NCBI RefSeq assembly: GCF_963583255.1
Contig: NC_084819.1
Location: 19,672,960 to 19,736,959 of the forward strand
Source of the DNA: Pyrus communis
Lineage: Eukaryota; Streptophyta; Magnoliopsida; Rosales; Rosaceae
DNA length: 64,000 nt
Direction: 5' to 3'
A program made the position numbers and the translations under genes. Of the stretch, positions 1-55,053 are shown piece after piece. Position 1 is the first letter of the stretch, and each line of letters opens with the position of its first letter. A model generated the notes under the pieces. The model was not told the DNA's origin, ran no database searches, and saw nothing but the letters and a program-made list of their open reading frames with translations.

Positions 1-370
1 AACGCAGCATTTTCGTCCCCATTAGGACAATATGACAACATACTTTTGCCTCGTTGTATTTCACACGACAAATTAAGCTCTTTGTTCTGTTACATTTAAT
101 GCGACAAATCATTTTTTTCAACGCACAATCATTTGTTGCGCGACAAATTTCATTATTTTGTCTCACAATTTTTTTTTCATGACCTTTGTGCAACGAACTA
201 GTTATTTCCTAAGGGCAAGGTTTTGTAGGGCAACCCCAATTTTCTGGTGGCGGGTGAGCTTGTAACATATATGGAACAATATCACACAGTTTTTGCGCAT
301 ATATAGTTGCATGCCTGAAATAACACTAAATATGGAACCATATTTCAGTTTTTTTATTTTGTTGCTTTGG
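1..370. other. Upstream flank of SOT copy 1; TCGTCGC-type repeat remnants
   Basis: No convincing gene. The stretch repeats imperfect words such as GCGACAAAT, TTGTTGCGCGACAA and TTCGTCCCC, which also occur at the unit right end (11590-11754) and around 6240-6660 and 7590-7745. Such TCGTCGC/GCGACGA words are common in subterminal regions of plant CACTA-type elements, so this may be old transposon DNA; the assignment is inference. Confidence 0.4.
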
Positions 371-504
371 TATATAAGAACTAATTAACTAAATTGTGTT
401 CTAGAATTAAGATAATTCAAATTTCTTCGTTGATTGATGACAGTATTGGATGACGATGTTTGTTTCCATGAACAACAACATTTCAAACAAATGGATATAA
501 TTTG

Positions 505-510
505 TATAAA
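505..510 (+). promoter_or_regulatory. Candidate TATA box, SOT copy 1
   Basis: TATAAA lies about 100 bp before the start codon and just before the CT-rich leader, a usual plant arrangement. An alternative TATATAA is at 371-377. Equivalent boxes are at 12261-12266, 26402-26407, 42735-42740 and 56298-56303. The start site cannot be seen from sequence alone. Confidence 0.45.
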
Positions 511-546
511 TGGTACTTGATTAATAGCTCATTCCTCATATCTAAT

Positions 547-571
547 TCTCTCTCTCTCTCTCTCTCTCTCT
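547..571 (+). repeat. (CT)n microsatellite in SOT copy 1 leader
   Basis: About 12 TC repeats between the TATA candidate and the start codon, so probably in the 5' untranslated leader. It is the shortest of the five alleles within this array. Confidence 0.9.
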
Positions 572-609
572 TTATCTATCTATCAATTCATTTATCTAGC
601 TCTATAGAT

Positions 610-3266
610 ATGGAGATGGCTGACCAGAGAGCAGAAAATAACGTCGTCTCCGGCCAACCCCAGAATAGTATTGCTGACTTTGATCCCCCAAAGAAACCCA
701 AGACAAAGAAGTTTGCTGTTGCCTGTGCCGTTTTGGCTTCAATGACGTCTATCTTACTGGGTTATGGTAATTGTTCCTTAAAACTCATGGATATTGTTAG
801 TGGTTGTGGTTCTCTAATGATACCCTCATTCTCCAGTCTTGTTCTTATTTGATTAAAAATATTATCTTACTATTGCAATGTGCCATTCTCCGTTCCTACT
901 CTTTTTGTTTTGGAAGAAACTTCTCCACCTACGACGCATGCTTATTTCAAATTTATTTACAGATATTGGTGTAATGAGTGGAGCGTCTCTCTTCATCAAA
1001 GAAAACCTCAATATCAGCGATGTTCAAGTTGAAGTTCTTAACGGTACCTTGAATATATACTCTCTCATTGGCTCCGCCTTGGCCGGTAAAACCTCTGACT
1101 GGATTGGACGCCGGTACACCATAGTACTTGCCGGAACAATCTTCTTTATTGGAGCTCTCCTCATGGGTTTTGCCCCGAACTACGCCTTCCTCATGTTTGG
1201 TAGATTCATTGCCGGAGTTGGAGTTGGCTATGCTCTTATGATAGCTCCTGTCTACACCGCCGAGATCTCTCCGGCCTCGTTTCGTGGCTTCCTCACATCT
1301 TTCCCTGAGGTTTTTTTCAGTACCACATTATATTATCATATAATATACTAACTATTTTTGTTATTAGCCAGGGTGATATGTTTACGTAAATATAAGCCTC
1401 TAAGTATTTGAAAAAAGTTATGCTTGCGAGACCATATAGTTATATCACATTTCTATATCATCTCATGTAACACGTGGTGCATACAATGAACATTCAATAA
1501 GATAAATTCATTAATTGATGTGGCATTTAAACCATCACTTGCCATGTCCGAAGGTATAAAAATATGGTAAAAAAATGTGATATTCTAACAATTTCCTCGT
1601 AAAAAGTAGGGGATTCCTATTCACACACCTCTTTTTACCTCCCACACACAATTGTTAATTTTTGTCCACTGGTTTTCTTCAATTCATTCGATCCGATGAC
1701 CAAAAATTGAAAGATTGTGTGAGATGGTAAAAAAGAGCGTGTGAATAGCACCACCCAAAAAATAATGCTAAGGACACCAGATATTTATAGCACATTAGTG
1801 TATCATCTCATGTGGCAAGTAATGTATGCAACCAACGTTCAATGAGATAAATTCATTAATTAATGTGACATGTACACATCACTTGCCACATTAGATAGTG
1901 CACAAATGCCATATAAAAATGTGCTCACCCTAGAATTTTCCTAAAATATCTACTGGGTGGCGCTATCCACACCATGTTTTACTTTCCATACACCTTCTGA
2001 ATTTCCGACCATAAGATCAAATGAACTAAAGAATATCAAAAGACGGAAATTAACAAGAGATGTGTGAAAAATACTAATGGATGTGTAGATAGAACCACCC
2101 TATTTATTGTTTCGTAAACCTCTCAAATGCATGCACGTGGAGTTTATATTAATAGAATTGATCATTTTGAAAATATGTAGGTGTTTGTTAACGTTGGTAT
2201 ATTACTGGGGTACGTATCCAACTTTGCCTTAGCCAAGCTCCCAATCCACTTGAACTGGAGGATCATGCTCGGCATCGGCGCAATTCCCTCAGTTTTTCTA
2301 GCCCTCGGCGTTTTAGCCATGCCCGAGTCACCACGCTGGCTCGTCATGCAAGGGAGACTCGGAGACGCCAAGCGAGTACTAAATAGAACATCATCTTCTG
2401 AAGAGGAATCGCAGCTCAGACTAGACGAGATTAAAGAAGCTGCAGGAATCCCCAAAGACTCAAAGGATGAGGTCGTTCAGGTTTCTAAACGCAGCCAAGG
2501 TGAAGGTATATGGAAGGAATTGCTCATTCGCCCTACGCCGGCCGTTCGCCACATTTTAATAGCAGCCCTTGGTATCCACTTCTTCCAACAAGTGTCGGGT
2601 ACAGACTCTGTGGTTTTGTACAGCCCCAGGATCTTCGAGAAAGCGGGAATCACTTCTTACAATGACAAGCTACTTGCAACCGTGGCTGTTGGATTTGTCA
2701 AGACCATTGCAATCTTGGTGGCAACATTTCAAGTTGATCGGTTCGGACGTCGTGCTTTGCTTTTAAGCAGCGTGGGTGGAATGGTAGTTTCTTTTACGCT
2801 ACTCGGTGTGGGTCTTACGGTCGTTGATCAATCCCACAGCAAGGTCCCATGGGCCGTCGGGTTGTGCATCGCCATGGTACTATTCATAGTCGCTTTTTTC
2901 TCCATTGGGTTGGGACCCATCACGTGGGTCTACAGCTCTGAGATCTTTCCGTTGCAGTTGCGCGCACAAGGGTGCAGTATGGGGGTGGCCGTAAACAGGT
3001 TGACGAGCGGGGTCATCTCCATGACTTTTATTTCATTGTATAAGGCCATCACGATTGGTGGGGCCTTCTTTCTTTACGCGGGAATTGCTGCGCTTAGTTG
3101 GGTCTTCTTTTATACATTGTATCCAGAAACGCAGGGTCGATCCCTTGAAGATATGGAGGTCTTGTTTGGTAAATACCACAAGTGGAGAGAAGCCAATGCC
3201 ATGCTTAACAAGACTAAGCAAGCTGATCATGGTTTTGGTGACGTCAACAAGGCTCAAATCCATTAG
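610..3266 (+). CDS. SOT: Sorbitol/polyol transporter, copy 1
   Basis: Proton-coupled sugar-alcohol carrier of the major facilitator superfamily, expected in the plasma membrane of phloem or sink cells. Exons are 610-766, 963-1309 and 2181-3266; both introns have GT...AG ends, and the spliced frame gives 529 residues, normal for the SOT/PLT family. Visible motifs: lysine-rich cytosolic N-terminus, DWIGRR at 98-103, PESPRW at 216-221, FFQQ at 302-305, DRFGRR at 354-359, GPITWVYSSEIFP from 413, PETQG at 483-487; the twelve-helix pattern is complete. A second ATG two codons downstream (616) would give a start MADQ, as I recall for apple and cherry SOTs; either is possible. Intron 2 (871 bp) is largely MITE sequence. 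The protein is identical to copy 2. The substrate is inferred from family similarity. Confidence 0.9.
1421..2100. repeat. Stack of four MITE-like inverted repeats in SOT intron 2
   Basis: Intron 2 consists mostly of four short elements with imperfect terminal inverted repeats: about 1421-1590, 1617-1756, 1768-1933 and 1955-2100. The first and third resemble each other (both with ATCATCTCATGT and GATAAATTCATTAATT). The second and fourth resemble each other in opposite orientation (ends like CTATTCACAC...GTGTGAATAG). The same stack is in introns 13086-13956, 27235-28106, 43584-44454 and 57038-57908, so it predates the duplications. Confidence 0.7.
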
Positions 3267-3510
3267 GAATAGAAGGGCAATGCTCAATCAATGTTTAATG
3301 CACTTTATGACGATGATCAATTCCTTTGTCTCATATATTTCAGTTATATGCAACTGTACTTACATTTATAAGAATAATTTTCATTAAAACCCAAAAACTT
3401 GTTTGGTACGTAGTGAAGTTGAAAATTTTGAAAACTTTTGGTTTTCATCTTTAGTGAAACATAGATCTCAAGCAATCGCTCCAACCATTATATTAAATTC
3501 TGAACTTTTA

Positions 3511-3688
3511 AGAAGAATAATGCCAAGGAACCAAATTTTCAAACCAAATTTTGTAAGCCAAATGATACGATTGTTTATGGTTGGATTATTACTTAAGTGT
3601 TGATTAACATGCTTAACTCTTATTGATGATACATCATTTGGTTTGCAAAATTTGGTTTAAAAGTTTGCTACCTAGCATTATCCTTCTT
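3511..3688. mobile_element. MITE 3' of SOT copy 1
   Basis: About 178 bp with inverted ends of about 50 bp: the left end begins AGAAGAATAATGCCAAGG and the right end finishes CTAGCATTATCCTTCTT. There is no coding capacity. A related but distinct element sits at 4903-5069 in the same unit. Copies at the same place: 15283-15459, 29010-29186, 45785-45961 and 59239-59415. Confidence 0.7.
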
Positions 3689-3840
3689 AAAAAATCACTA
3701 GACACATCACATGAAAACCCCAGTCTACCTAGACATCCATTGACTTACCTGTAAACCCTCACCCTCGCTTATCGACTCGCCCTTTATTGTTCTCTCTGAT
3801 CCTAGCGTCCTTTCTAACATTTTCTAGTGGACACAAAATT

Positions 3841-4842
3841 TGTTGGAGAACAATTCAGAAATAAACAAAAATAACATAAATAAACAAAACTTGAAATTCT
3901 AATATTTATTAACCAAAAATACTTGTCGTGCAGAATGAAATTACAGAATAAATACATAAATTAATATAAGAATAACATTGGTACTAACTTGATTATAGAA
4001 GGTAGAGGCAAGCGTAAAAGCTATGTCATTCGAACAGTATTTCCGTCTCACTCTTGTGCTTGTGGCTCTACAACGTCTGCTCGACCAGAATTCAACTACC
4101 TAATTCTACAACCTGCACTGGATTCTAGAATTCTAGCGAATTTGCTTTGTGTGCTTACTCTCTGGAATTTTCGTACGGAAGAAAAAGAGGAAGAAATGAT
4201 GATCTCACTTGGATACTGTGATTACAAATATATAGGTTGTTTCACACCCTTTCAAATACCTGTTCAACGTATTTGAAAGTACACAACTCTTTTTATGAAA
4301 TGAGTTGTGTCTTTTAATCAAAACATTTTTAATTAATAAATTAATTATACAAGCCTAATCCACACAACCATAAGGCCTAAGCCTTCAATCCATTTCCAAA
4401 TGATCAATGTTCTAATTACTAGACTAAAGCACTAAATCTATATAAAGGGCAATGAACCTTTAGTGTTTCCCGATGTGGGACACCAAAAGTCTCAAAACCC
4501 TTACAAAATCTTCATCATCAAGATCAATCGAGCGCACAAGTTCTGTGCTCACTTTCACCTTTTGGGAAGGTTCAGAGTCTCAGACATCTTATTTTCTTTG
4601 TTAAGTAACAAGACGTTCTATCAATATGTTTGGTAGATGTGCTTAATATATAATTGTTTGTTCTTGTTAGAACATTTAGTTAATTTAGAATCTTCTTCGT
4701 AATTGCAAGAAGGTAAATTTTTATAGTAATTATTTTAGGAATTCGTCTCATATGGGTTTTGTCAAACCCTATATATAAATATATTATACACATTGTATCA
4801 GACAAATCAGGGAATCATATTTCTATATGGTATCATAGCAGG
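3841..4842 (+). mobile_element. Old LTR-like fragment ending in a primer-binding-like site
   Basis: The fragment starts TGTTGGAGAACAATTC, contains the CCGATGTGGGACACC word common in plant LTRs (near 4470), and ends at TGGTATCATAGCAGG (4828-4842), which resembles the initiator-tRNA primer site of copia elements with one change. No internal coding region or second LTR follows, so this is a decayed left end at most. U1 lacks about 126 bp present in U3. Equivalents: 29340-30456, 46115-47226, and a partial copy ending at 53238. Confidence 0.45.
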
Positions 4843-4902
4843 TTGCTCTATGTATAAAACTCGACGGCCACACGTGCTCTACGTCACCTTATTTGTATTA
4901 GA

Positions 4903-5069
4903 GTAAGGCCAGAGAGACTAAATTTATGGACACAATTTTGAAAACTAAAGGACATGAAAGTTGATGATTGGTTTATTACTTACTCGTTGATAAACGTGCT
5001 TATTCTTATTGGTGACACATCATTTAGTTTATAAATTTAGTCTCCAAATTTGGTCTTCCTAGCATTACC
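4903..5069. mobile_element. Second MITE of the unit
   Basis: Inverted ends around GACTAAATTTAT (left) and ATAAATTTAGTC (right), finishing CTAGCATTACCC. The interior (TTATTCTTATTGGTGACACATC) resembles that of the MITE at 3511-3688, so the two belong to one family. Equivalents begin near 30517, 47287 and 53297; it is deleted in U2 and U6. Confidence 0.65.
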
Positions 5070-6080
5070 CTGTGTGTTGTCCACGTGTTAGGCATGAAAA
5101 TTCAGTGACACACTCTGATCCCAATAACACAAGTTACGAGACCGCAATATGCTGGCCGCCACTAAATTGATCACATGAACCCATCATGAGATAACGTCAC
5201 AAGCCGACTTAGTGATGAAAGCCATCGTAAGATAATTATGATGTGAATGAATTTGAACCAAACTGTTCTTTATTAATAATCAAAACAGTCTAGTAAGAAA
5301 ACCTCATCAACCTCCTCACTTGGGGACACATGTTCGAGGATGTAATCTCATCCTTATCGTATTACACCAAAGCTGATAGTAGCCTCACACAACAGTTAAC
5401 ACAAAATAATGTAGTGTCATATATAATCAAGAGTACAATCATGCAATTATTAAACTCATTGTCAAGCCTACTCTTCACTTCCTGGATTATCTTTGTTCTC
5501 ACTATGTCCTGAGAGGTCGACAAAATAAAGTGTGAGTGGATCAAGTTTATCTAGTTAAAATCATTTGAATATAATAACCCTCGTTTTGAAATCATATATA
5601 TAGTAAAAAACTATAAGTAATCAAGTTTATATCACTTCGCTTGTCATATCAAAGAATGTAAATTCCATTCACATTATCAAAGTAATTCAAGTGTATAGCA
5701 AGTAGTTGAAGTGGCATTTACCTAATTGATGATTAGTGTCTATTAACGAATTTAGATTTTACTGGAAATATCAATAACTGCATTAAACCTACGGTCGTAG
5801 CTAGCTATACAATATGTATGATGACCATTTGTTGAAAATGAATCACCAATAGTCTTAAGATATCATTCAAGTTTAACTAGATTTAAGTCTCCTCAAAGAC
5901 TACTCAAGAACATAATATAATATAATATAATATAATATATAATATTGTAATATACATCAAATGGTAAGTAGAGCGTCCTTCCTCGTTAGGCTCCTTGCAT
6001 GATTCCTTTTTAATAGCTACTAAATTAATTAATCATACATTCGAAGAAAAAATTAATCAACAAATAAAAATAAACTAATC
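5070..6080. other. Non-coding spacer with (AATAT)n tract
   Basis: No supported gene; the short ORFs here are conserved only because the unit is duplicated. An AATAT-type microsatellite lies at about 5912-5945; its length differs in U3 (about 31528-31550), U4 (about 48293-48325), U5 (about 54308-54352) and U6 (about 59720-59740). Confidence 0.7.
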
Positions 6081-6239
6081 TTCAATCAATTGGGAGAGGA
6101 AGAGATGGAGGAGAGTGTAGGGTGTTTGTGTATAAGAGAGAGAGAGATGCAAGGAGAAACAGCAGCCGCCGAGGGGAACAGCGAAAGGAGAATGGGAATA
6201 TAGAAGAACGCACAAACCTAATTGGTGAAGTAGTGTTTG

Positions 6240-7750
6240 CCCGACGGAAATCCTCGACAGGCACCTTCACTCAGTCGTCGAGCAAATGTGTTTCTGCTCG
6301 TTTTTTAACACATCGATGTGGTCCTTTGTTAAAACTAACTGAAACCGTTAGTCAATGAAACTGTCCGTCGGGCAAACTGAACTTAGCCAACGAATCAGTG
6401 TTTTGTCCCGCAAGACTCAATGACTTGCGCGCCAAATTTTTTGCTAGCGCCAAAATCTTGCCCTACGACAGTCAAATGGGGAAAAATTTACGCTACGAAG
6501 GATTTTTCCGCGAAAGGTACCTTTTCTCAACGACTAAAAACCTTCATCGTGCAAATGCCTTCAAGTAAGTGCGGGTAAGGAGTTTTTTGGCACCAAATAG
6601 TCGCATGACGAGGAATTTCCCACGTAAACATTACGCGAGAGATTTTATCAAGTAAAGGGCTTTGAAATGGTCAGTGCACATTGAACTTGTCGTATTTAAA
6701 ATATCTTAAGGTCTTGTTTTAATTTTGGTGAGATGGCCGATTCCGCTGCTCTTACAACTAAGCAATGCAAGGGAGAAGTATTTGGGAAAGGTAATAATTA
6801 AGTTTCTGTGGATGTAATATTTATATTTTTGGAAAAACAATTTTGGGTGAATCACTTACTGTGATTTAGAAATTTATGTTTTGTTTCCGTAGATACTGCA
6901 AATAAAAAAAACCCAGAGATCGATGCAGGCTCAAAAGGAGGAAAATGCGCAACGTATGCGAATCATTTATGATGATATGAGGGGATTGAATACGATGACG
7001 AATGTGGAGCTTATGCACGACATTCGTGTACTAGTGCGGATCAACTGTTTTACGAAGCGGGCGTCTTGGAACAATTTGCCTGAGGACTTGAAGAAGTCTA
7101 TGTTGGATGAATTATCAGTAAGTGTAAATTAGTAAAATCATTATTATTTTGTTAAATAGTATATTATAACGATTAATTTGTAATTATTTTTTGTGTCACA
7201 ATGTAACTATATTATTTATGTTACGGACCAACGCTTGATGAAGTTGATCGATGAGATGTTCAGGACGCATAACCGGCAGTGGTGGCCTAACGTCTAGCGA
7301 CACGTAGAATTACAGGGAAATCCTGACAGACTAGTGGAGTAGAAGTGTTAATTAAGTGTTGTGGACGAATAACATATGTTTATATTTGTGTATTTGAGGA
7401 CAATGTTTTTAATTATTTCTTTAATATGTATTTGAATTAAAATTTCAGTTTAATTGATTAGTTGGTTAATTTGATTTATTTGGTTAACTTAATTTGATTT
7501 AAGTTTTTTTTTTATTTTACTTAATCAATTAGACAATAAACTCCTTATTTACATAAGTTTCAAAATTTCAAATAAATATTTAAATTTAATGTCTTCTGTC
7601 GCTTCAGCATTTAGGCGGCGAACTTGTCATCGCACAAAAATATTCGTCGCGCAAAGTGGCCAAAAAATTCAGGTAGATTTTGCGCCAATTTTCGACGGTA
7701 TATGTTTTGAACAATGCAGGTTTCGTCGCACAAAGAGTTCGTGTTTATAA
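6240..7750. mobile_element. TCGTCGC-motif-rich, CACTA-like remnant
   Basis: Imperfect words such as CCGTCGGGCAAAC, TTCGTCGCGCAAAG, TTTCGTCGCACAAAG and GGCGGCGAAC recur on both sides of the short ORF at 6923-7132. Plant CACTA elements often carry such GCGACGA/TCGTCGC subterminal words. No CACTA terminus and no complete transposase is seen, so this is a tentative remnant. Equivalents: about 31840-33350 and 48610-50110; deleted in U2. Confidence 0.35.
6923..7132 (+). CDS. Short exon-like ORF, unknown (U1)
   Basis: An open frame of 69 codons rich in charged residues (start MQAQKEENAQRMR, later SWNNLPEDLKKSMLDEL). A GTAAGT donor-like site lies within the last codons, so the true exon could end near 7120. 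About 80 bp downstream a second open stretch reads LMKLIDEMFRTH before a stop. This pattern might be a decayed exon pair of a plant transposase, given the motif-rich DNA around it, but I do not recognise the family. The frame is unbroken in three units, with an in-frame 21-bp deletion in U4. Confidence 0.3.
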   Translation: MQAQKEENAQRMRIIYDDMRGLNTMTNVELMHDIRVLVRINCFTKRASWNNLPEDLKKSMLDELSVSVN

Positions 7751-11037: not shown

Positions 11038-11754
11038 GGTTTGCAACCAAAGTACCAAAGCGATCAAAAGGAAATAACTAGCTAGAAAGTAACCAAATTT
11101 ATAAGAGGCATATACTGTGATACTGAGTTGTGTTGTGTGCACCAGATCAACGAATCTCACTGAGGAGTTAATTTAGTTCTAATTTTTATTGACAACCAAT
11201 TATATATTATGCGGTTAACAGTAATTTTTATTATCGATCAACCAATTTTTGTTGCTTTGCCTTTTTTTCACCTTCTTTTTTTGGGTTAATTTTGCAGCTA
11301 GTAGTAAAAGTAAAGTGTGGATAACAACAATTTTCGGGAATTGCAGATAGTATTTATTTAGCAAAATGTATATATATGAACAACTTTTGAAATTGTACGT
11401 ACAATTTCTTTATATTATAAATAAAACAAATTTATTAATTATTTTTACAATTTAATTATAAAAAAAATTGTAATTAACTTTTTTATAAATTATTGTTACA
11501 ATTTAATTTAAAAAAAATTTAATTGTTGTTTTAATTTAAAAAATGTTTTCACAACCCAAAAGAAAAAAAATATGTATATTAAACTTTACGCAACAAAACC
11601 TTTTGTCGTGTAACAGTAAATGCCACAACCATATTTGTCGCGTAACAGTAATACGCATACGACAAATTTGTGACAATTAAATAATGTTAAAATTACTCCA
11701 ATTTGTTGCATGAATGTTTACTAAACAAAACGTTTCGTCGCGCAATGCTTTACT
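11038..11754. other. AT-rich right end of unit U1
   Basis: No gene. AT-rich DNA (11380-11560) is followed by TCGTCGC-type words (TTTGTCGCGTAACAG, TTTCGTCGCGCAATGC) that lead into the next unit. Equivalents are 25180-25896, 41613-42230 and 54535-55792. Confidence 0.7.
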
Positions 11755-16845: not shown

Positions 16846-19800
16846 ATGGTTGAAGAAAATCCTCTTAGGTCAGATGCTGAAAGTTCACCGGTTCTTTCTT
16901 CCGGAAATATGTCTGAGGTGGATGTCAATCCAAATCAAAGGTTAAGCTCAGTCTTGTTAAATGAGTTTAATTACTTACCTTGGTCGAGAGCAGTGAGCCT
17001 TGCTCTAGGTGGAAGGTCCAAGCTAGGGTTCATAAATGGAAGCATCGAAGTTCCTGATGCTTCCTCACCAACATATGAAAACTGGCTTTGCAAGGATCAG
17101 CTAGTTATGTCATGGCTCCTAAATTCCATGGAGCGTAAACTAGCTGAAATATTCAGTTATTCTGAATCATCATTCGAGCTATGAGAGACAGTCAAGGAGA
17201 TGTATGGCAGTCAAAACAATGCTGCACGTGTGTTTCAACTAAAGAAGGACATTTCCAACCTGCAACAAGAAGGAAAGCCATTTGTTCAACTTCTTGGCAG
17301 CATGAAGAGCATGTGGAATGAGTTGAAAATGTATCGGCCTCATACAACTGAAGCGTCCGTGCTACTGAAAAGGGCAGAAGAAGACAAGATATTCCAACTC
17401 TTGTCAAGCCTTGATTCAGGATACGAAGACCTACGAAGCCACATACTCATGAACCCCGAACTACCTTCCTTCACCAGTGTATGTGCAACAATCCAACGTG
17501 AAGAAGTACGAAGGAAAGTCATGAACATTGGCACAAAGACCAATGTAACTGAAGCAAGGTCTTACCTAACCAACGAAAGAAAATACAAAGTGAAGAATCC
17601 ACACTTGAAGTGCCAACATTGAAACTATACTGGCCATGTTAAGGAGACATGCTGGATTTTACATCCAGAATTAAAGCCAGAGTTCATGAAGGATAACAAG
17701 GGCTCACAAAGACTGAACCGTGCACCACACAGAGCCAACAATGCATCTACCTCAACCTCACATGGGTCTGACGCACTCAAGAGCTTCACAGCAAATCCGG
17801 CTGCACTCATAAATGAGTTTGCAGCATATCTTCAAAGCAAGAAAGAAGAGGTTAAGAGTGATCAAACGGTCGTTTTTGAAGATGGAAACTCAACAGCTTT
17901 GCTAGGCAAGTTCGCTGGTTTTCTGACAGACACACAACACATGTCCCAAGATGACATGCAAGGTATCATGACTGCTTTCAAAACTGCTCTTAATGTAAAT
18001 ATGATGCATGATTTTTGGATTGTTGATTCGGGTGCCACAGATCATATGACCAATCATGTTTCTAAGTTTCAAAAGTTTGAAAAATTTTCGCAACCTTCTC
18101 AAGTCTCAACTGCCAATGGTGAGAGTTCCAAGGTTTTAGGCAAGGGAAATATCCACTTAATGTCGGACAAAATTGAGTCAGTAGCCTTATATGTTCCTTC
18201 TTTTCCATTTCAACTTCTATCTGTGGGAAAAATCACCAATACCTTGAATTGTTTAGCCATCTTCTCTCCTCACAATGTCATTTTTCAGGATTGTCTCACC
18301 AAGAAGACGATTGGTGAAGGGTTTTATCTAGATGGTCTCTATTACATATCAAAAAGCAGTCCCAGGGGATTTCAAGCCAAGTCCAATCCATCCCAAGATA
18401 GTCAATTGTGGCATCAACGTCTAGCTCATCCTTCTCAACCTGTTTTGTCATCTTTGTTTCCAAATTTAGGGAATGATTTAATTTCGTGTGAAACCTGTCA
18501 TTTGTCTAAGGACACTAGATTGCCTTTTAACCCATCCTTATCTAGGACTAGTAAAGTTTTCGAACTAGTTCACTCAGATGTATGGGGACCAACGTTTGAA
18601 TCTTTTGATGGTTATAAGTATTATGTGATCTTTGTTGATGATTTCTCTAAAGCCACTTGGTTGTACCTTTTAAAGTCTAAGAGTAAAGTGATGGAAGTAT
18701 TTAAGGATTTTCACAACCTTGTTAAGAACCATTTTTCTTCTCAAATTCAAACTTTAAGATCTGACAATGGCACCGAATACACGTCCCATCTCATGTCACA
18801 ATATTTGAGCAATCATGGTATCATGCATCAAACAAGCTGTGTTGGCACACCTCAACAAAATGGTGTAGCCGAAAGGAAAAATCGTGACATACTGGAAAAA
18901 ACAAGAGCATTAATGTTACACATGAATGTACCAACAAGATTTTGGTCCCAAGGAGCCATGGCGGCTGTGTACATCATCAATAGACTTCCTAGCCGAGTCT
19001 TGGGGTTTAAATCTCCCCTTGAAGTCATGAAAGGAAGAAAAATCGACCTCTCACATCTTAGAACCTTTGGTTGTGTCTGTTTTGTTCATGTTCAGTCACA
19101 CCATCGAGATAAATTGGACCCTAGAGCTCTCAAATGCATTTTTCTTGGTTATTCATCAACACAAAAAGGATATAAGTGCTATGATCCCCAACTGAGAAAA
19201 ATCATTGTATCCAAAGATGTTCGATTCCATGAAGCTAACCCTTTTTTCAGCAAGTCACTTGAAGCCACAGGTCAGGGGGAGTGTATCTTTGATCTGCTTC
19301 ATCTACCAAGAATCAGCACTCCAGATGTTTTAAATGAAAGAGGTTCTAACCATGACAACAATGATGAATCTCCTACACCACTCACTGAAGTCAACAATGA
19401 AGGCACTCATCCTGATGGTTCTATGGATGATGATAACAGCGGCAACCAAGAAAATCTTCAAAGTGTGGCTGATAATTTGAACGAGGATGAGACAACTCTC
19501 CCAGTACCTCGATGCAACCCTCGGCGTGATAGACAACCTCCCACAAGACTTCAAGATTTTGTCACATATAAACCGAGGTATCCAATCTCCAATTGCGTGT
19601 CGTATCAAAAGGTGACTCCATCTATTGCTGCTTTTCTTAATACCATTTCAAGTCACAGTGAGCCTCAAAACTTTCATGAGGCTAATAACCAAGTTGTGTG
19701 GAAAGAAGCAATGCGAGATGAACTCAAAGCACTGGACCAACATAACACCTGGAGCATCACCAAACTTCCAAAAGGAAAAAGGGCAGTGGGCTGCAAATGG

Positions 19801-21195
19801 ATCTATAAGATCAAGTTTAATGCTGATGGTTCAATTGAAAGACATAAAGCCAGGCTGGTGGCTCGAGGATTCACTCAAACATTTGAGGTAGATTACAAAG
19901 AAACATTTGCTCCTGTTGCAAAAATGAACTCAGTTAAGGTCCTATTGTCTGTTGCCATCAATAAGGGTTGGTCCATGTACCAAATGGACATAAAGAACGC
20001 CTTTCTACATGGTGATCTTGAAGAAGAGGTCTATATGAGATTGCCACCAGGACACCCTCAAAGCCAGGAGCCTGATTTGGTGTGTAAGTTGCATAAGTCG
20101 ATTTATGGATTGAAGCAATCGCCTCGTGCTTGGTATGCAAAACTAAGTTCAGTTCTTCATAGTGTTGGTTTCAAAAGGAGTAATGCAAATTCATCATTAT
20201 TTGTTCGCACGGGAGCTGCGAGCAAATTAGTTGTGTTGATATACGTGGATGACTTAATAATTACAGGTGATAATGCTGCAGAGATCTCCACACTCAAAAA
20301 GTCACTTCAACAAAGATTTGCAATTAAAGATCTTGGGGTGCTGAAGTATTTTCTTGGAATCGAAATGGCATCTTCTCACAAGGGACTATTTCTTAATCAA
20401 CGAAAATACGTCATGGACCTACTCAAGGATGCTAATATGAGCGATGCTAAGCCTGCACTTACTCCTTTCGATAGCAAGCTCAAACTTGACTTGGGAGGCA
20501 CACCACTCTCGGATATCAGCTCCTATCAGAGGCTTGTCGGTAAGCTGATTTACCTAACGATCACCAGACCTGACATCTCATATTCAGTGAGTATAGCCAG
20601 TCAATTCATGCATTCCCCCACCATCGAGCATTTGAACCTTGTAAAAAGGATCTTACGTTACTTAAAAGGGTCCGTTGGTCGTGGCATCCTCATGACGAAG
20701 AATGACAACACTCAAATCATGGGGTACTGCGATGCAGATTAGGCAGGAAATGCCATCGATCGCAAGTCCACCACTGGTTACTGTACCTTTGTCGGTGGAA
20801 ATTTGGTCACATGGAAGAGCAAAAAACAAACTGTCATTGCAAGATCAAGTGCCGAAGCTGAATATCGTGCAATGGCCTCAACCGCGTGTGAGCTGATATG
20901 GCTAAAAGGACTTCTATGTGACTTAGGTGTGTTCACGACTCAACCAATGACCTTATTTTGTGACAACCAGGCTGCTATGCACATAGCATCAAATCCATTC
21001 TTTCACGAGAGAACGAAGCACATTGAAGTCGACTGTCACTATGTTCGTGAACAAGTACAGTCGCAGGTGATTCAGACACATTATGTAAAAAGCTCCGATC
21101 AGCTGGCCGATATATTCACCAAACCTCTGGCCTCTCATCAGTTTCAAAGACTCCTCTCCAAGCTTGGATCCATCAACCTTTTGGATCCAGCTTGA
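16846..21195 (+). pseudogene. Copia gag-pol polyprotein with three in-frame stops
   Basis: One frame of about 1449 codons runs from ATG 16846 to the stop at 21193-21195, interrupted at 17182-17184, 17620-17622 (inside the zinc-knuckle region) and 20740-20742 (inside RNase H). No frameshift is seen. Domains in order: gag (16846-17700), protease with DSGATDH (18025 on), pre-integrase LWHQRLAHP (about 18400), integrase with HSDVWGP (18571), RSDNGTEY (18757) and TPQQNGVAERKN (about 18847), reverse transcriptase with NAFLHGDL (19996) and YVDDLI (20242), and RNase H with [11 protein letters not shown] (20842). The middle frame of 1018 codons holds protease, integrase and RT uninterrupted. Confidence 0.93.
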
Positions 21196-25179: not shown

Positions 25180-25896
25180 GGTTTGCAACCAAAGTACCAA
25201 AGCGATCAAAAGGAAATAACTAGCTAGAAAGTAACCAAATTTATAAGAGGCATATACTGTGATACTGAGTTGTGTTGTGTGCACCAGATCAACGAATCTC
25301 ACTGAGGAGTTAATTTAGTTCTAATTTTTATTGACAACCAATTATATATTATGCGGTTAACAGTAATTTTTATTATCGATCAACCAATTTTTGTTGCTTT
25401 GCCTTTTTTTCACCTTCTTTTTTGGGTTAATTTTGCAGCTAGTAGTAAAAGTAAAGTGCGGATAACAACAATTTTCGGGAATTGCAGATAGTATTTATTT
25501 AGCAAAATGTATATATATGAACAACTTTTGAAATTGTACGTACAATTTCTTTATATTATAAATAAAACAAATTTATTAATTATTTTTACAATTTAATTAT
25601 AAAAAAAATTGTAATTAACTTTTTTATAAATTATTGTTACAATTTAATTTTAAAAAAATTTTAATTGTTGTTTTAATTTAAAAAATGTTTTCACAACCCA
25701 AAAGAAAAAAAATATGTATATTAAACTTTACGCAACAAAACCTTTTGTCGTGTAACAGTAAATGCCACAACCATATTCGTCGCGTAACAGTAATACGCAT
25801 ACGACAAATTTGTGACAATTAAATAATGTTAAAATTACTCCAATTTGTTGCATGAATGTTTACTAAACAAAACGTTTCATCGCGCAATGCTTTACG
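25180..25896. other. AT-rich right end of unit U2
   Basis: Same content as 11038-11754; no gene. Confidence 0.7.
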
Positions 25897-26534: not shown

Positions 26535-29102
26535 ATGGAGATGGCTGACCAGAGAGCAGAAAATAATGTCGTCTCCGGCCAACCCCAAAATAGTATTGCA
26601 GACTTTGATCCTCCAAAGAAACCCAAGACAAAGAAGTTTGCTGTTGCCTGTGCCGTTTTGGCTTCAATGACGTCTATCTTACTGGGTTATGGTAATTGTT
26701 CCTTAAAACTCATGGATATTGTTAGTGGTTGTGGTTCTCTAATGATACACTCATTCTCCAGTCTTGTTCTTATTTGATTAAAAATATTATCTTACTATTG
26801 CAATGTGCCATTCTCCGTTCCTACTCTTTTTGTTTTGGAAGAAACTTCTCCACCTACGACGCATGCTTATTTCAAATTTATTTACAGATATTGGTGTAAT
26901 GAGTGGAGCGTCTCTCTTCATCAAAGAAAACCTCAATATCAGCGATGTTCAAGTTGAAGTTCTTAACGGTACCTTGAATATATACTCTCTCATTGGCTCC
27001 GCCTTGGCCGGTAAAACCTCTGACTGGATTGGACGCCGGTACACCATAGTACTTGCCGGAACAATCTTCTTTATTGGAGCTCTCCTCATGGGTTTTGCCC
27101 CGAACTACGCTTTCCTCATGTTTGGTAGATTCATTGCCGGAGTTGGAGTTGGCTATGCTCTTATGATAGCTCCTGTCTACACCGCCGAGATCTCTCCGGC
27201 CTCGTTTCGTGGCTTCCTCACATCTTTCCCTGAGGTTTTTTTCAGTACCACGTTATATTATCATATAATATACTAACTATTTTTGTTATTAGCCAGGGTG
27301 ATATGTTTACGTAAATATAAGCCTCTAAGTATTTGAAAAAAAGTTATGCTTGCGAGACCATATAGTTATATCACATTTCTATATCATCTCATGTAACACG
27401 TGGTGCATACAATGAACATTCAATAAGATAAATTCATTAATTGATGTGGCATTTAAACCATCACTTGCCATGTCCGAAGGTATAAAAATATGGTAAAAAA
27501 ATGTGATATTCTAACAATTTCCTCGTAAAAAGTAGGGGATTCCTATTCACACACCCCTTTTTACCTCCCACACACACTTGTTAATTTTTGTCCACTGGTC
27601 TTCTTCAATTCATTCGATCCGATGGCCAAAAATTGAAAGATTCTGTGAGATGGTAAAAAATAGCGTGTGAATAGCACCACCCAAAAAATAATGCAAAGGA
27701 CACCAGATATTTATAGCACATTAGTGTATCATCTCATGTGGCAAGTGATGTATGCAACCAACGTTCAATGAGATAAATTCATTAATTAATGTGACATGTA
27801 CACATCACTTGCCACATTAGATAGTGCACAAATGCCATATAAAAATGTGCTCACCCTAGAATTTTCCTAAAATATCTACTGGGTGGCGCTATCCACACCA
27901 TGTTTTACTTTCCATACACCTTCTGAATTTCCGACCATAAGATCAAATGAACTAAAGAATATCAAAAGACGGAAATTAACAAGAGATGTGTGAAAAATAC
28001 TAATGGATGTGTAGATAGAACCACCCTATTTATTGTTTCGTAAACCTCTCAAATGCATGCACGTGGAGTTTATATTAATAGAATTGATCATTTTGAAAAT
28101 ATGTAGGTGTTTGTTAACGTTGGTATATTACTGGGGTACGTATCCAACTTTGCCTTAGCCAAGCTCCCAATCCACTTGAACTGGAGGATCATGCTCGGCA
28201 TCGGCGCAATTCCCTCAGTTTTTCTAGCCCTCGGCGTTTTAGCCATGCCCGAGTCACCACGCTGGCTCGTCATGCAAGGGAGACTCGGAGACGCCAAGCG
28301 AGTACTAAATAGAACATCATCTTCTGAAGAGGAATCGCAGCTCAGACTAGACGAGATTAAAGAAGCTGCAGGAATCCCCAAAGACTCAAAGGATGAGGTC
28401 GTTCAGGTTTCTAAACGCAGCCAAGGTGAGGGTATATGGCAGGAATTGCTCATTCGCCCTACGCCGGCCGTTCGCCACATTTTAATAGCAGCCCTTGGTA
28501 TCCACTTCTTTCAACAAGTGTCGGGTACAGACTCTGTGGTTTTGTACAGCCCCAGGATCTTCGAGAAAGCGGGAATCACTTCTTACAATGACAAGCTACT
28601 TGCAACCGTGGCTGTTGGATTTGTCAAGACCATTGCAATCTTGGTGGCAACATTTCAAGTTGATCGGTTCGGACGTCGTGCTTTGCTTTTAAGCAGCGTG
28701 GGTGGAATGGTAGTTTCTTTTACGCTACTCGGTGTGGGTCTTACGGTCGTTGATCAATCCCACAGCAATAGAAGGGCAATGCTCAATCAATGTTTAATGC
28801 ACTTTATGACGATGATCAATTCCTTTGTCTCATATATTTCAGTTATATGCAACTGTACTTACATTTATAAGAATAATTTTCATTCAAACCCAAAAACTTG
28901 TTTGGTACGTAGTGAAGTTGAAAATTTTGAAAACTTTTGGTTTTCATCTTTAGTGAAACATAGATCTCAAGCAATCGCTCCAACCATTATATTAAATTCT
29001 GAACTTTTAAGAAGAATAATGCCAAGGAACCAAATTTTCAAACCAAATTTTGTAAGCCAAATGATACGATTGTTTATGGTTGGATTATTACTTAAGTGTT
29101 GA
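26535..29102 (+). pseudogene. SOT: Sorbitol transporter copy 3, 3'-deleted
   Basis: Exons 1 (26535-26691) and 2 (26888-27234) and the start of exon 3 (from 28107) match copy 1, with one replacement (WKEL to WQEL). At about 28769 a 427-bp deletion, with a two-base AA overlap at the junction, removes codons 389-529 and the normal stop. The frame then runs into the former 3' untranslated region and MITE and stops at 29100-29102, giving a hypothetical 499-residue chimera. The lost part contains the last transmembrane helices, GPITWVYSSEIFP and PETQG, so sugar transport is very unlikely. Confidence 0.93.
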
Positions 29103-39444: not shown

Positions 39445-39563
39445 GGTGCTTATTTTCTATTGGTTTGCAACCAAAGTACCAAAGCGATCAAAAGGAAATA
39501 ACTAGCTAGAAAGTAACCAAATTTATAAGAGGCATATACTGTGATACTGAGTTGTGTTGTGTG

Positions 39564-39756
39564 TAAAGGGATAAGTAGTCATAGCTAACAGCTTGTACAG
39601 CTGTCATTTATAGATGTAACAGTTTTGTAACTAATCTCTGTATTAGAGACCTAATTATGTGTAATTAGGTACTAAGCTTTGTTAGAGAACTGTATATATA
39701 TTGAGTTGTAATTCTTACACATTAAGTAATGAAATACAAAGAGTCAGTTTCTTATA
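39564..39756 (+). repeat. 5' LTR of rearranged copia element
   Basis: 193 bp, TAAAGGGATAAG to TTTCTTATA, with no difference from the 3' LTR. Confidence 0.92.
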
Positions 39757-39770
39757 TGGTATCAGAGCTG
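39757..39770 (+). other. Primer binding site of rearranged element
   Basis: TGGTATCAGAGCTG directly follows the LTR and matches the initiator-tRNA type. The inverted RT fragment is fused to it through the shared GCTGTTG word. Confidence 0.88.
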
Positions 39771-40283
39771 TTGAATAAAAGTTTGACACTGAGAGGCATC
39801 GGGACCAGTAACAAGTATGTCATCGACATACACCAAGACCATCACCAGAGAAGGAGCAGAGCGCACAAACAAAGAGCAATCAGACTGAGAATTAACAAAA
39901 CCAAGAGAAAGCAAGGTGCGACCAAGTTTGTCATACCAGGCCCGAGGGGCTTGTCTTAAGCCATAAAGAGATCTATTTAGCTTGCAGACAAAGGAAGGCT
40001 TAGAGGCATCAACAAAACCAGGAGGTTGTTGCATAAACACCTCCTCTTTCAGAGAACCATGAAGAAACGCATTACTAATATCCAACTGATGAAGAAACCA
40101 ATCATTTTGGACAGCAAGGGTTAATAAAATGCGAATGGTGACTGGTTTGGCAACAGGACTGAAGGTTTCTGTAAAATCAAGACCGGCTTGCTGGTGAAAT
40201 CCCTTGGCTACAAGGCGAGCCTTGTACCGATCAATCGTGCCATCGGGTTTCCTTTTAATCCGGAACACCCATTTGCAGCCCAC
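39762..40283 (-). pseudogene. Inverted copia reverse transcriptase fragment
   Basis: The minus strand reads about 173 codons without a stop: GCKWVFRIKRKPDG, then NAFLHGSLKEEVFM, LYGLRQAPRAWYDKL and YVDDILVTG (the catalytic box). This is the N-terminal half of a copia RT domain. It lies backwards between the primer site and the integrase fragment, so it cannot be made from the element's own sense RNA. Confidence 0.92.
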
Positions 40284-40332
40284 AAGGTCTCTCTCCGGCT
40301 TCTATCCCCTTCAAGGTCTCTCTCCGGCTTCT
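40283..40332 (+). repeat. 21-bp direct repeat at inversion junction
   Basis: The same 21 bases occur at 40283-40303 and 40312-40332 (core AAGGTCTCTCTCCGGCTTCT). They mark the border between the inverted RT fragment and the forward integrase fragment, a typical scar of template switching or slippage. Confidence 0.85.
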
Positions 40333-41439
40333 TCTTCACATACTGCTCTTCTTACCACTAAAGTTTCGTTGAAGACATGGCATCACAGACTTGGTCATCC
40401 TTCCTCTGCTATGTTTCGGAAAGTTTTAAATAAGCAGTGTCTTCCCTCCATTGGTGACAAGTCTGTATCTTTTTTTTGCACAGATTGTGCAATAGGCAAA
40501 AACCATAAGCTGTCTTTTTCTCCTAGCACTAGTTCTACTTCAACTAGTTTAGAGTTACTCCATTGTGATGTTTGGGGTCCGTCTCCAGTCCTTTCTGTTA
40601 CTGGTTACAGATTCTACTTGTTGATTGTGGATGATTTTACTAAATACACATGGCTGTTTCCTATGAAAGCTAAATCTGAGGTCTTTTCTCTCTTTGTCAT
40701 CTTCAAGGCCTATGTTGAGAACTTGATTGGTAATAAAATCAAAATCTTGAGATCTGATTCAGGGGGTGAATTCACCAGTTCTGTGTTCAATTCATTTCTC
40801 TCCAGCAATGGCATCTCTCATCAATATAACTGTCCTCGTGACACTCATTTTCAGGCTGTTAAACGCATTCTTCGGTTTCTCAAAGGCACTATTGATCAAG
40901 GCATCTGGTTCAAAAAGGGATCTCTGCAGCTCACCGCTTTCTCTGATGCGGATTGGGCTGGCTGTGTTTTTGATCGTCGCTCTACTTCTGGCTATTGTAT
41001 CTACTTCGGTTCCAATCTTATCAGTTGGAGTGCTAAAAAGCAGCCCACTGTTGCCCGTTCTTCCACTGAGGCCGAATATCGCTCTCTTGCCCTTACTGCT
41101 GCAGAACTTACATGGATCTGCAAGATTTTCAATGACATTACTTTCCCTCTTTCTCATCCCCCTATACTGTGGTGTGACAATGTTTCTGCAATTTCTTTGG
41201 CTTCCAATCCTGTCTTTCATGCGCGCACTAAGCATGTGGAGATCGATTACCATTACATTCGGGAACTTGTTCTTGCAGGTTTGGTCAAGGTGCTCTATGT
41301 CCCCACTGAACACCAGGTTGCAGATATTCATACTAAGTCCTTACCCAAGGCACGATTTCATTTCCTTCAATCCAAGCTTTCTCTGGGTTCTCCTCCGATT
41401 AGCTTGAGGGGGTGTAAAGGGATAAGTAGTCATAGCTAA
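40333..41439 (+). pseudogene. Fused copia integrase-RNase H fragment
   Basis: One open frame joins pre-integrase (WHHRLGHPS, 40378 on), partial integrase (HCDVWGP, RSDSGGEFTSS; it ends near 40840 before the catalytic glutamate region) and the end of RT plus RNase H (RILRFLKG, DADWAGC, RSSTEAEYRSL). The junction near 40835-40850 deletes the end of integrase and most of RT in frame. The frame runs through the polypurine tract and stops in the 3' LTR at 41437-41439. Confidence 0.9.
41404..41414 (+). other. Polypurine tract of rearranged element
   Basis: TTGAGGGGGTG just before the 3' LTR. Confidence 0.8.
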
Positions 41440-41607
41440 CAGCTTGTACAGCTGTCATTTATAGATGTAACAGTTTTGTAACTAATCTCTGTATTAGAGA
41501 CCTAATTATGTGTAATTAGGTACTAAGCTTTGTTAGAGAACTGTATATATATTGAGTTGTAATTCTTACACATTAAGTAATGAAATACAAAGAGTCAGTT
41601 TCTTATA
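41415..41607 (+). repeat. 3' LTR of rearranged copia element
   Basis: 193 bp, identical to 39564-39756, followed by the GTGTG target duplication. Confidence 0.92.
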
Positions 41608-41612
41608 GTGTG

Positions 41613-53465: not shown

Positions 53466-55053
53466 ATGTGTGTTGTCCACGTGTTAGGCATGAAAATTCA
53501 GTGACACACTCTGATCCCAATAACACAAGTTACGAGGCCGTAATATGCGGGCCGCCACTAAATTGATCACATGAACCCATCATGAGATAACGTCACAAGC
53601 TGACTTAGTGATGAAAGCCATCGTAAGATAATTATGATGTGAATGAATTTGAACCAAACTGTTCTTTATTAATAATCAAAACAGTCTACTAAGAAAACCT
53701 CATCAACCTCCCCACTTGGGGACACATGTTCGAGGATGTAATCTCATCCTTATCGTATTACACCAAAGCTGATAGTGGCCTCACACAACAGTTAACACAA
53801 AATAATGTAGTGTCATATATAATCAAGAGTACAATCATGCAATTATTATACTCATTGTCAAGCCTACTCTTCACTTCCTGGATTATCCATGTTCTCACTA
53901 TGTCCTGAGAGGTCGACAAAATAAAATGTGAGTAGATCAAGTTTATCTAGTTAAAATCATTTGAATATAATAACCCTCATTTTGAAATCATATATATAGT
54001 AAAAAACTATAAGTAATCAAGTTTATATCACATCGCTTGTCATATCAAAGAATGTAAATTCCATTCACTTTATCAAAGTAATTCAAGTGTATAGCAAGCA
54101 GTTGAAGTGGCATTTACCTAATTGATGACTAGTGTCTATTAACGAATCTAGATTTTACTGGAAATATCAATAACTGCATTAAACCTACGGTCATAGCTAG
54201 CTATACAATATGTATGATGACCATTTGGTGAAAATGAATCACCAATAGTCTTAAGATATCATTCAAGTTTAACTAGATTTAAGTCTCCTCAAAGACTACT
54301 CAAGAACATAATATAATATAATATAATATAATATAATATAATATAATATATAATATTGTAATATACATCAAATGGTAAGTAGAGCGTCCTTCCTCGTTAG
54401 GCTCCTTGCATGAGTGACGGTGCTTATTTTTTATTGGTTTGCAACCAAAGTACCAAAGCGATCAAAAGGAAATAACTAGCTAGAAAGTAACCAAATTTAT
54501 AAGAGGCATATACTGTGATACTGAGTTGTGTTGTGTGCACCAGATCAACGAATCTCACTGAGGAGTTAATTTAGTTCTAATTTTTATTGACAACGAATTA
54601 TATATTATACGGTTAACAGTAATTTTTATTATTGATCAACCAAATTTTGTTGCTTTGCCTTTTCACCTTATTTTTTTGGGTTAATTTTGCAGCTAGTAGT
54701 AAAAGTAAAGTGTGGATAACAACAATTTTCGGGAATTGCAGATAGTATTTATTTAGCAAAATGTAGATATATGAAGAACTTTTGAAATTGTACGTACATT
54801 TTTCTTTATATTATAAATAAAACAAATTTATTAATTACTTTTACAATTTAATTATAAAAAAAATTGTAAATAACTTTTTTATAAATTATTGTTACAATTT
54901 AATCAAATTTTTTTTTAATTGTTGTTTTAATTTAAAAAATGTTTTCACAACCCAAAAGAAAAAAAATATGTATATTAAACTTTACGCAACAAAACCTTTT
55001 GTTGCGTAACAGTAAATGCCACAACCATATTTGTCGCGTAACAGTAATATGCA
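53466..55053. other. Spacer of U5 with internal jump
   Basis: The (AATAT)n tract at about 54308-54352 is the longest in the array. At about 54413 the sequence jumps past the ORF, ACP and SINE to the AT-rich unit end. No gene. Confidence 0.65.
55049..55053 (+). repeat. Target-site duplication of Cassandra (ATGCA)
   Basis: ATGCA here and at 55691-55695. The uninterrupted site in U4 reads AATATGCATACGAC near 42127. Confidence 0.9.

Follow-up and report, generated by a model that had tools for sequence, protein, structure and literature searches.

A young Ty1/copia copy in a Pyrus communis transporter array, with an interior probably scrambled by template switching during reverse transcription

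How does a retrotransposon come to have an interior in which pieces are missing, one is duplicated and another is turned around, while its long terminal repeats (LTRs) are identical and its target-site duplication (TSD) is perfect? The question is raised by a copia element at positions 39564–41607 of the window, i.e. the whole stretch of 64,000 nucleotides analysed here, where self-comparison places it inside a tandem array of transporter-like gene units.

The array occupies window positions 1–64000 and comprises five sugar-alcohol transporter-like gene units at a spacing of 12–16 kb, with repeats that are mostly 91–100% alike and some stretches at 65–76%; its genes, named from protein sequence, are presumably sugar-alcohol (polyol/sorbitol-type) transporters. 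AG/CT repeats lie close to the transporter gene starts. The third transporter copy (28107–29102) diverges in frame from its sisters past VVDQSHS, and an insertion or rearrangement may have disrupted it; 17623–20742 holds a further copia-like element, whose open frame is 1,039 codons long. The apparent start of one transporter copy is found ~1.3 kb downstream of the scrambled element, whose right flank matches the sister units at 92–97% identity where the alignments are longer. The features of the element and its insertion site are as follows (window coordinates, strand, feature and evidence).

39559–39563, no strand: left TSD, GTGTG; flank overlap of 5 bp at the three empty sites of sister units
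39564–39756, plus: 5′ LTR, 193 bp, TA..TA; boundaries as in all five relatives with both LTRs in the slice
39757–39768, plus: primer-site stub, TGGTATCA (native) and GAGC (common to the tRNA complement and antisense RT), junction J1; primer sites of relatives
39765–40285, minus: inverted reverse transcriptase (RT) segment, 521 bp, ruler relative 3802–3282, YVDD region included; Pfam and relatives
40283–40303, plus: 21-bp repeat, copy 1; CAA common with RT (J2), then 18 nt of pre-integrase
40300–40829, plus: pre-integrase and N-terminal integrase core in native order; Pfam and relatives
40312–40332, plus: 21-bp repeat, copy 2, native, within the pre-integrase; relatives
40829–40837, plus: junction J4, mismatch base A and 8-nt microhomology CTGTCCTC; six relatives
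40838–41405, plus: end of RT and RNase H region; homology (Pfam made no RNase H call)
41406–41414, plus: polypurine tract GAGGGGGTG; identical letters before the 3′ LTR in five relatives
41415–41607, plus: 3′ LTR, 193 bp; pairwise LTR comparison
41608–41612, no strand: right TSD, GTGTG; evidence as for the left
11135–11139, no strand: empty site in a sister repeat unit; flank alignment
25277–25281, no strand: empty site in a sister repeat unit; flank alignment
54533–54537, no strand: empty site in a sister repeat unit; flank alignment

From left to right, the element thus consists of an LTR, an 8-nt stub of the primer site, inverted RT, a 21-bp duplication, forward pre-integrase and integrase, a deletion of 1,716 nt, the RNase H region, the polypurine tract and the second LTR. 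Pfam assigns RVT_2 to the minus strand (E 3.9e-55) and both gag_pre-integrs and rve to the plus strand, and the two copies of the 21-bp repeat are spaced by 29 nt. These strands and repeat coordinates, together with six relatives from the same genome, confirm the preliminary description of a scrambled interior with a reversed RT, a 21-bp scar and a deletion between integrase and RNase H. The relatives are 97.3–99.6% identical to the element over the RT segment and fix both the native order and all four breakpoints. On the relative that served as a ruler (1–4882), the element corresponds to 1–201, an inverted 3802–3282, ~1859–2400 (blastn edges 1855–2402) and 4104–4882. The ~1.66 kb missing after the primer site would, judged by position, be gag and protease. 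The integrase is cut before an ERKH stretch that is present in the relatives and presumably holds its last catalytic residue, and the element has no sense RT.

Two features assign the family to Ty1/copia: integrase precedes RT and RT precedes RNase H in the intact relatives, and the window element has an LTR pair with a 5-bp TSD, a primer-binding site (PBS) beside the 5′ LTR and a polypurine tract beside the 3′ LTR. The five relatives with both LTRs are 4.85–4.89 kb long and their LTR pairs differ at 0, 1, 0, 1 and 2 sites; a frame of more than 1,450 codons is found in two of the six relative slices, the longest being below 970 in the other four. Altogether 23 of the 39 RT loci recovered were mapped, ruler included, and the other 16 could change the counts given below; the mapped set includes four 5.7-kb slices, and one copy (L012) aligns only from ruler position 508. 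Rfam gave no match in the window at gathering scores, and a scan of an LTR word against viral contigs gave none either. Among the best 120 of 5,923 proteins, none carried the same fusion at high identity, a weak result given that protein sets often omit transposons; the best matches in this set span about half of the query, and a few proteins, at 35–48% identity, cover both integrase and RNase H in fusions of other kinds.

When and how often did the element insert? Its two LTRs are identical at 193 of 193 positions and GTGTG stands on both sides, as the preliminary description had it, and in three sister units this site is unfilled, the element's flanks overlapping there by exactly GTGTG. Because of these identical LTRs, the TSD and the three empty sites, the element goes back to a single integration event, one that is later than the duplication of the units since the three sisters keep the unfilled site. 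At 1.3e-8 substitutions per site per year, the rate used in PMC3701649, the absence of differences in 193 sites sets a 95% bound of 1.55% divergence or ~0.6 My. The window is a tandem array and thus error-prone to assemble, which could suggest an assembly or library chimera, but neither a 5-bp duplication of a site that is empty in three sister units nor LTR ends matching those of the family would be expected of one, and we regard this explanation as exceedingly improbable.

All five relatives with both LTRs in their slice share 193-bp TA..TA LTRs and perfect 5-bp TSDs, which rules out an LTR start at TG (195 bp with a 3-bp TSD). The TA..TA ends of this family (window 39564 and 39756, and relatives) are non-canonical and go with 5-bp TSDs; non-canonical ends named in the accessible text of published papers are TA..CA, TG..TA, TG..TT, AA..CA and TG..GA.

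The overlaps at the four junctions amount to 4 nt at J1 (only with a tRNA copy), 3 nt at J2, 4 nt at J3 and 8 nt at J4. Among 200,000 random junctions, overlaps of at least 3 nt occurred at a frequency of 0.057, of at least 4 nt at 0.019 and of at least 8 nt at 0.0003, i.e. the overlap at J4 is clearly non-random and that at J2, taken by itself, is not.

At J4, the 8-nt CTGTCCTC borders a deletion that measures 1,716 nt against the ruler, is equal in five of the six relatives and is 27 nt smaller in the sixth. Base 40829, immediately before it, is an A in the element; in all six relatives, the integrase-side sequence has G at this place and the RNase H-side sequence has A. Since only three other substitutions set the element apart from all six relatives over 1,636 interior bp, a chance mutation at precisely this base is unlikely; the same comparison gave no indication of a segment from a different source lineage. 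A strand growing from the RNase H side, i.e. a minus strand on RNA, would end in a base that mispairs G.T with the integrase template, and its extension would leave an A, whereas growth from the integrase side should have retained the G. To judge by these letters, the retained A would fit minus-strand synthesis with extension of a terminal mismatch. For HIV-1, duplications made by RT are described as driven by microhomology and accompanied by terminal mismatch extension (PMC13288777, accessible text).

J2 lies at the 3-nt CAA. J3 lies at the 4-nt TTCT (CGGCTTCT versus CGGATTCT), the last four nucleotides of repeat copy 1, which are also found in the upstream pre-integrase; the jump slips back by 29 nt, and the 21-bp repeat is its consequence. 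A repeat native to the source is ruled out, as all six relatives have the second copy alone and protein relatives agree. Overlaps of 6 and 7 nt at the RT/pre-integrase junction and the back-slip, obtained by a protein-only reading, are replaced by 3 and 4 nt in the nucleotide comparison. The overlaps at J1–J3 are short (3–4 nt), and the direction of the jumps is not legible from the letters there.

At J1, after the LTR, the element reads TGGTATCA and then GAGCTGTTG, and all five near-identical relatives with a visible site read TGGTATCACCGCC; the antisense RT of the relatives reads GTACT followed by GAGCTGTTG. GCTGTTG, which the preliminary description had taken for an overlap at the primer site, is therefore no primer-site match: it derives entirely from RT, the relatives have TGGTATCACCGCC at this place, and the overlap with native DNA is 0 nt. 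Four nucleotides, GAGC, are nevertheless common to J1 and TGGTATCAGAGC, which we take to be the complement of the initiator tRNA. The primer site is TGGTATCAGAGC in the element versus TGGTATCACCGC in the seven nearest relatives with a visible site (the five near-identical ones, L015 and L016). For further elements of plants, TGGTATCAGAGC is likewise given as the PBS (PMC7215508, PMC3977881, accessible text). We infer that GAGC took part in the junction as DNA copied from tRNA; GAGC is also native to RT, being present in the antisense RT of five of the six relatives (AAGC in one), and a 4-nt match at a fixed position has a chance of 1/256. Only with tRNA-copied DNA as the donor would J1 thus represent microhomology. 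Nine distant copies (L019–L027) help to delimit this signature: in six the site is visible next to what looks like an LTR end, with variable letters past TGGTATCA (CCGCC-like or TCCC). One of these, L019 (C10:1469800-1479700), shows TGGTATCAGAGCCA ahead of CCGCC, the pattern that a retained copy of the tRNA end would leave. Because of L019, the tRNA-type letters are unique to the element only within its close family, and since GAGC stands in the primer site of this copy, an unseen source copy with such a site may exist.

Taken together, these data make it very probable that the element is young and non-autonomous, a Ty1/copia copy in which RT switched templates repeatedly within one particle just before integration and so scrambled the interior. 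Placing the origin in the last reverse transcription, as the preliminary description had suggested among other options, is supported by the breakpoints against six relatives, the tRNA-type primer site and the mismatch at J4. In this scenario, the minus strand growing on RNA would skip 1,716 nt from the RNase H side to the integrase at the 8-nt match, extending a terminal mismatch. It would then copy the pre-integrase, slip back by 29 nt at TTCT and switch at CAA onto the opposite-sense strand of a second co-packaged genome, of which 521 nt of RT would be copied. Joining at GAGC to plus-strand strong-stop DNA, with its end copied from the initiator tRNA, would allow strand transfer to finish and yield two identical LTRs, and a helper integrase would insert the finished molecule, duplicating 5 bp of target as usual. 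The outcome would be no different had the steps run in another order, with the strong-stop DNA straying onto RT RNA. A second template molecule is needed for any such one-round model because J4 removed the very stretch to which the inverted RT belongs; the two packaged genomes of a particle could supply it. That all jumps fell into one round is an argument from parsimony. Autointegration was rejected, as the inverted piece abuts the primer site and not an LTR end.

An intact insertion might instead have been rearranged in place by host repair, be it microhomology-mediated replication or several inversions and deletions. Microhomology at J2–J4 fits this too, given that such replication leaves similar scars, and identical LTRs with an intact TSD are compatible with it; contrary to the preliminary description, these two features do not by themselves place the scramble before integration, since a rearrangement confined to the interior leaves both intact and merely has little time to occur. 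Yet repair would need about two inversions and two deletions, or three copy jumps, within ~0.6 My, and would explain neither why the primer site shifted exactly toward the tRNA complement with respect to near-identical relatives nor the mismatch at J4. What speaks for an origin before integration is the combination of the event count, the little time available, the tRNA-type letters and the mismatch at J4, and we consider later repair very unlikely.

Might the scramble have been assembled over several cycles, or be the offspring of an already scrambled parent? For this, a 584-bp query spanning J1–J3 was searched against the element's own genome (487 Mb, 29 contigs), and the best 40 of 478 candidates were scored. 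Just one of 41 matches, at the element's own place, covered the full query, and the remaining ones were confined to query positions 9–532; a second copy of the junction should outrank RT-only matches within these best 40 of 478 candidates. Several copies with the same rearranged interior, as in a TRIM- or LARD-like mobile family, were not found with this query among these candidates. The preliminary proposals that the scrambled form had itself been retrotransposed and that its junction might reveal a mobile non-autonomous family hence find no support in the candidates scored. A stepwise history, in which the J4 deletion preceded the inversion by at least one cycle or in which earlier scrambled copies have since been lost, would be helped by the LTRs, PBS stub and polypurine tract that remain in the element, and Tos17, a copia element without gag, is believed to rely on the Gag of Lullaby (PMC3977881, accessible text). 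Against it stand the lack of a second J1/J2 copy among the best 40 of 478 candidates and the position of the inverted RT within the 1,716 nt of J4: had J4 come first, RT would still have had to come from another genome. We judge such a history to be unlikely, and template switching in a single particle remains the preferred reading.

A second copy with an inverted RT piece, L015 (contig C5, slice 1693–6496, about 2735192–2739995), shares 88–94% identity with the ruler; its TSD (CACCC) is perfect and its LTRs differ at 2 of 164 sites. It shows a deletion (about 1564–2039) followed by 2040–4204, inverted 3733–2820, ~21 unmatched nt and a 3′ LTR with a truncated start, which aligns no earlier than about position 30. 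Between its sense and inverted RT, 33 of 914 bp are substituted (about 96% alike); set against its LTRs to ask whether the inverted RT came from another genome, this divergence is not distinguishable from theirs (33/914 versus 2/164, Fisher p 0.15). By eye, one of its junctions has an overlap of at most a base or so and another contains filler. Because the inverted piece adjoins the 3′ LTR and is joined with minimal overlap and filler, L015 lacks the J1 signature and may have another origin. Inverted RT is thus present in two of the 23 mapped copies (of 39 loci), and although two cases do not make a rate, inverted pol pieces may recur in the family.

One tentative and rather doubtful proposal connects these observations. 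The tRNA-copied end of strong-stop DNA (..GAGC) would be mismatched at its proper site, as the primer site of the family matches the initiator tRNA for only 8 nt, and a misdirected second strand transfer captured by pol would then leave inverted pol beside the primer site. The same proposal would have inverted pol recur in the family and the L015 hairpin silence it: with both sense and inverted RT, L015 is predicted from its sequence to yield a transcript with an RT hairpin of 0.9 kb, a possible trigger of silencing. The window element has antisense RT without sense RT, and therefore its transcript could pair only with the RNA of other copies, in trans. An inverted derivative, Mu killer, is said to silence its relatives.

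Overall, the scrambled element is an unusually legible case of a known process. In maize, structural variants of the Stonor family are reportedly ascribed to reverse transcription. Complex elements of the Triticeae that arose by template switching likewise have an intact 5-bp TSD and highly similar outer LTRs, from which an origin in one round was inferred (Sabot and Schulman 2007, PMC1950507, accessible text); those elements have two cores sharing a third, internal LTR, an arrangement absent from the window element, which shows an inverted piece, a back-slip and deletions instead. Defective integrated copies with inverted or deleted interiors are likewise described for HIV-1 proviruses, and template switching in reverse transcription is named as a source of their large deletions, but HIV-1 is a retrovirus and not a plant copia element, and the likeness is one of description (PMC9278108, accessible text). 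The tomato copia element TARE1 resembles the present family in an LTR that begins with TA (194 bp), a 5-bp TSD and a length of about 4.7 kb, and its PBS TGGTATCAAGAA begins with TGGTATCA before departing from TGGTATCAGAGC. It differs in LTRs that end in CA, where the window element is TA..TA, in its 354 copies and in that no scramble is described in the accessible text (PMC3701649). TARE1 is called Ale there, and this likeness might point, as a lead only, to the Ale lineage. Tos17 is likewise gag-less and thought to depend on the Gag of another element, but in the window element the integrase is cut and RT inverted as well (PMC3977881, accessible text). Titles and opening lines of abstracts in the open-licence literature, which mostly excludes subscription papers, yielded no inverted-RT copia copy of this kind.

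The empty sites, sister copies at 97–99.6% identity and a tRNA-like base signature are what allow each jump to be placed, and the element thus serves as a naturally preserved log of the mistakes that reverse transcriptase made in a plant. Non-autonomous derivatives could originate from mistakes of this kind, and the data suggest a possible susceptibility to them in a family whose match to the tRNA is short. L015, in turn, offers a concrete locus at which to address the question of self-silencing.
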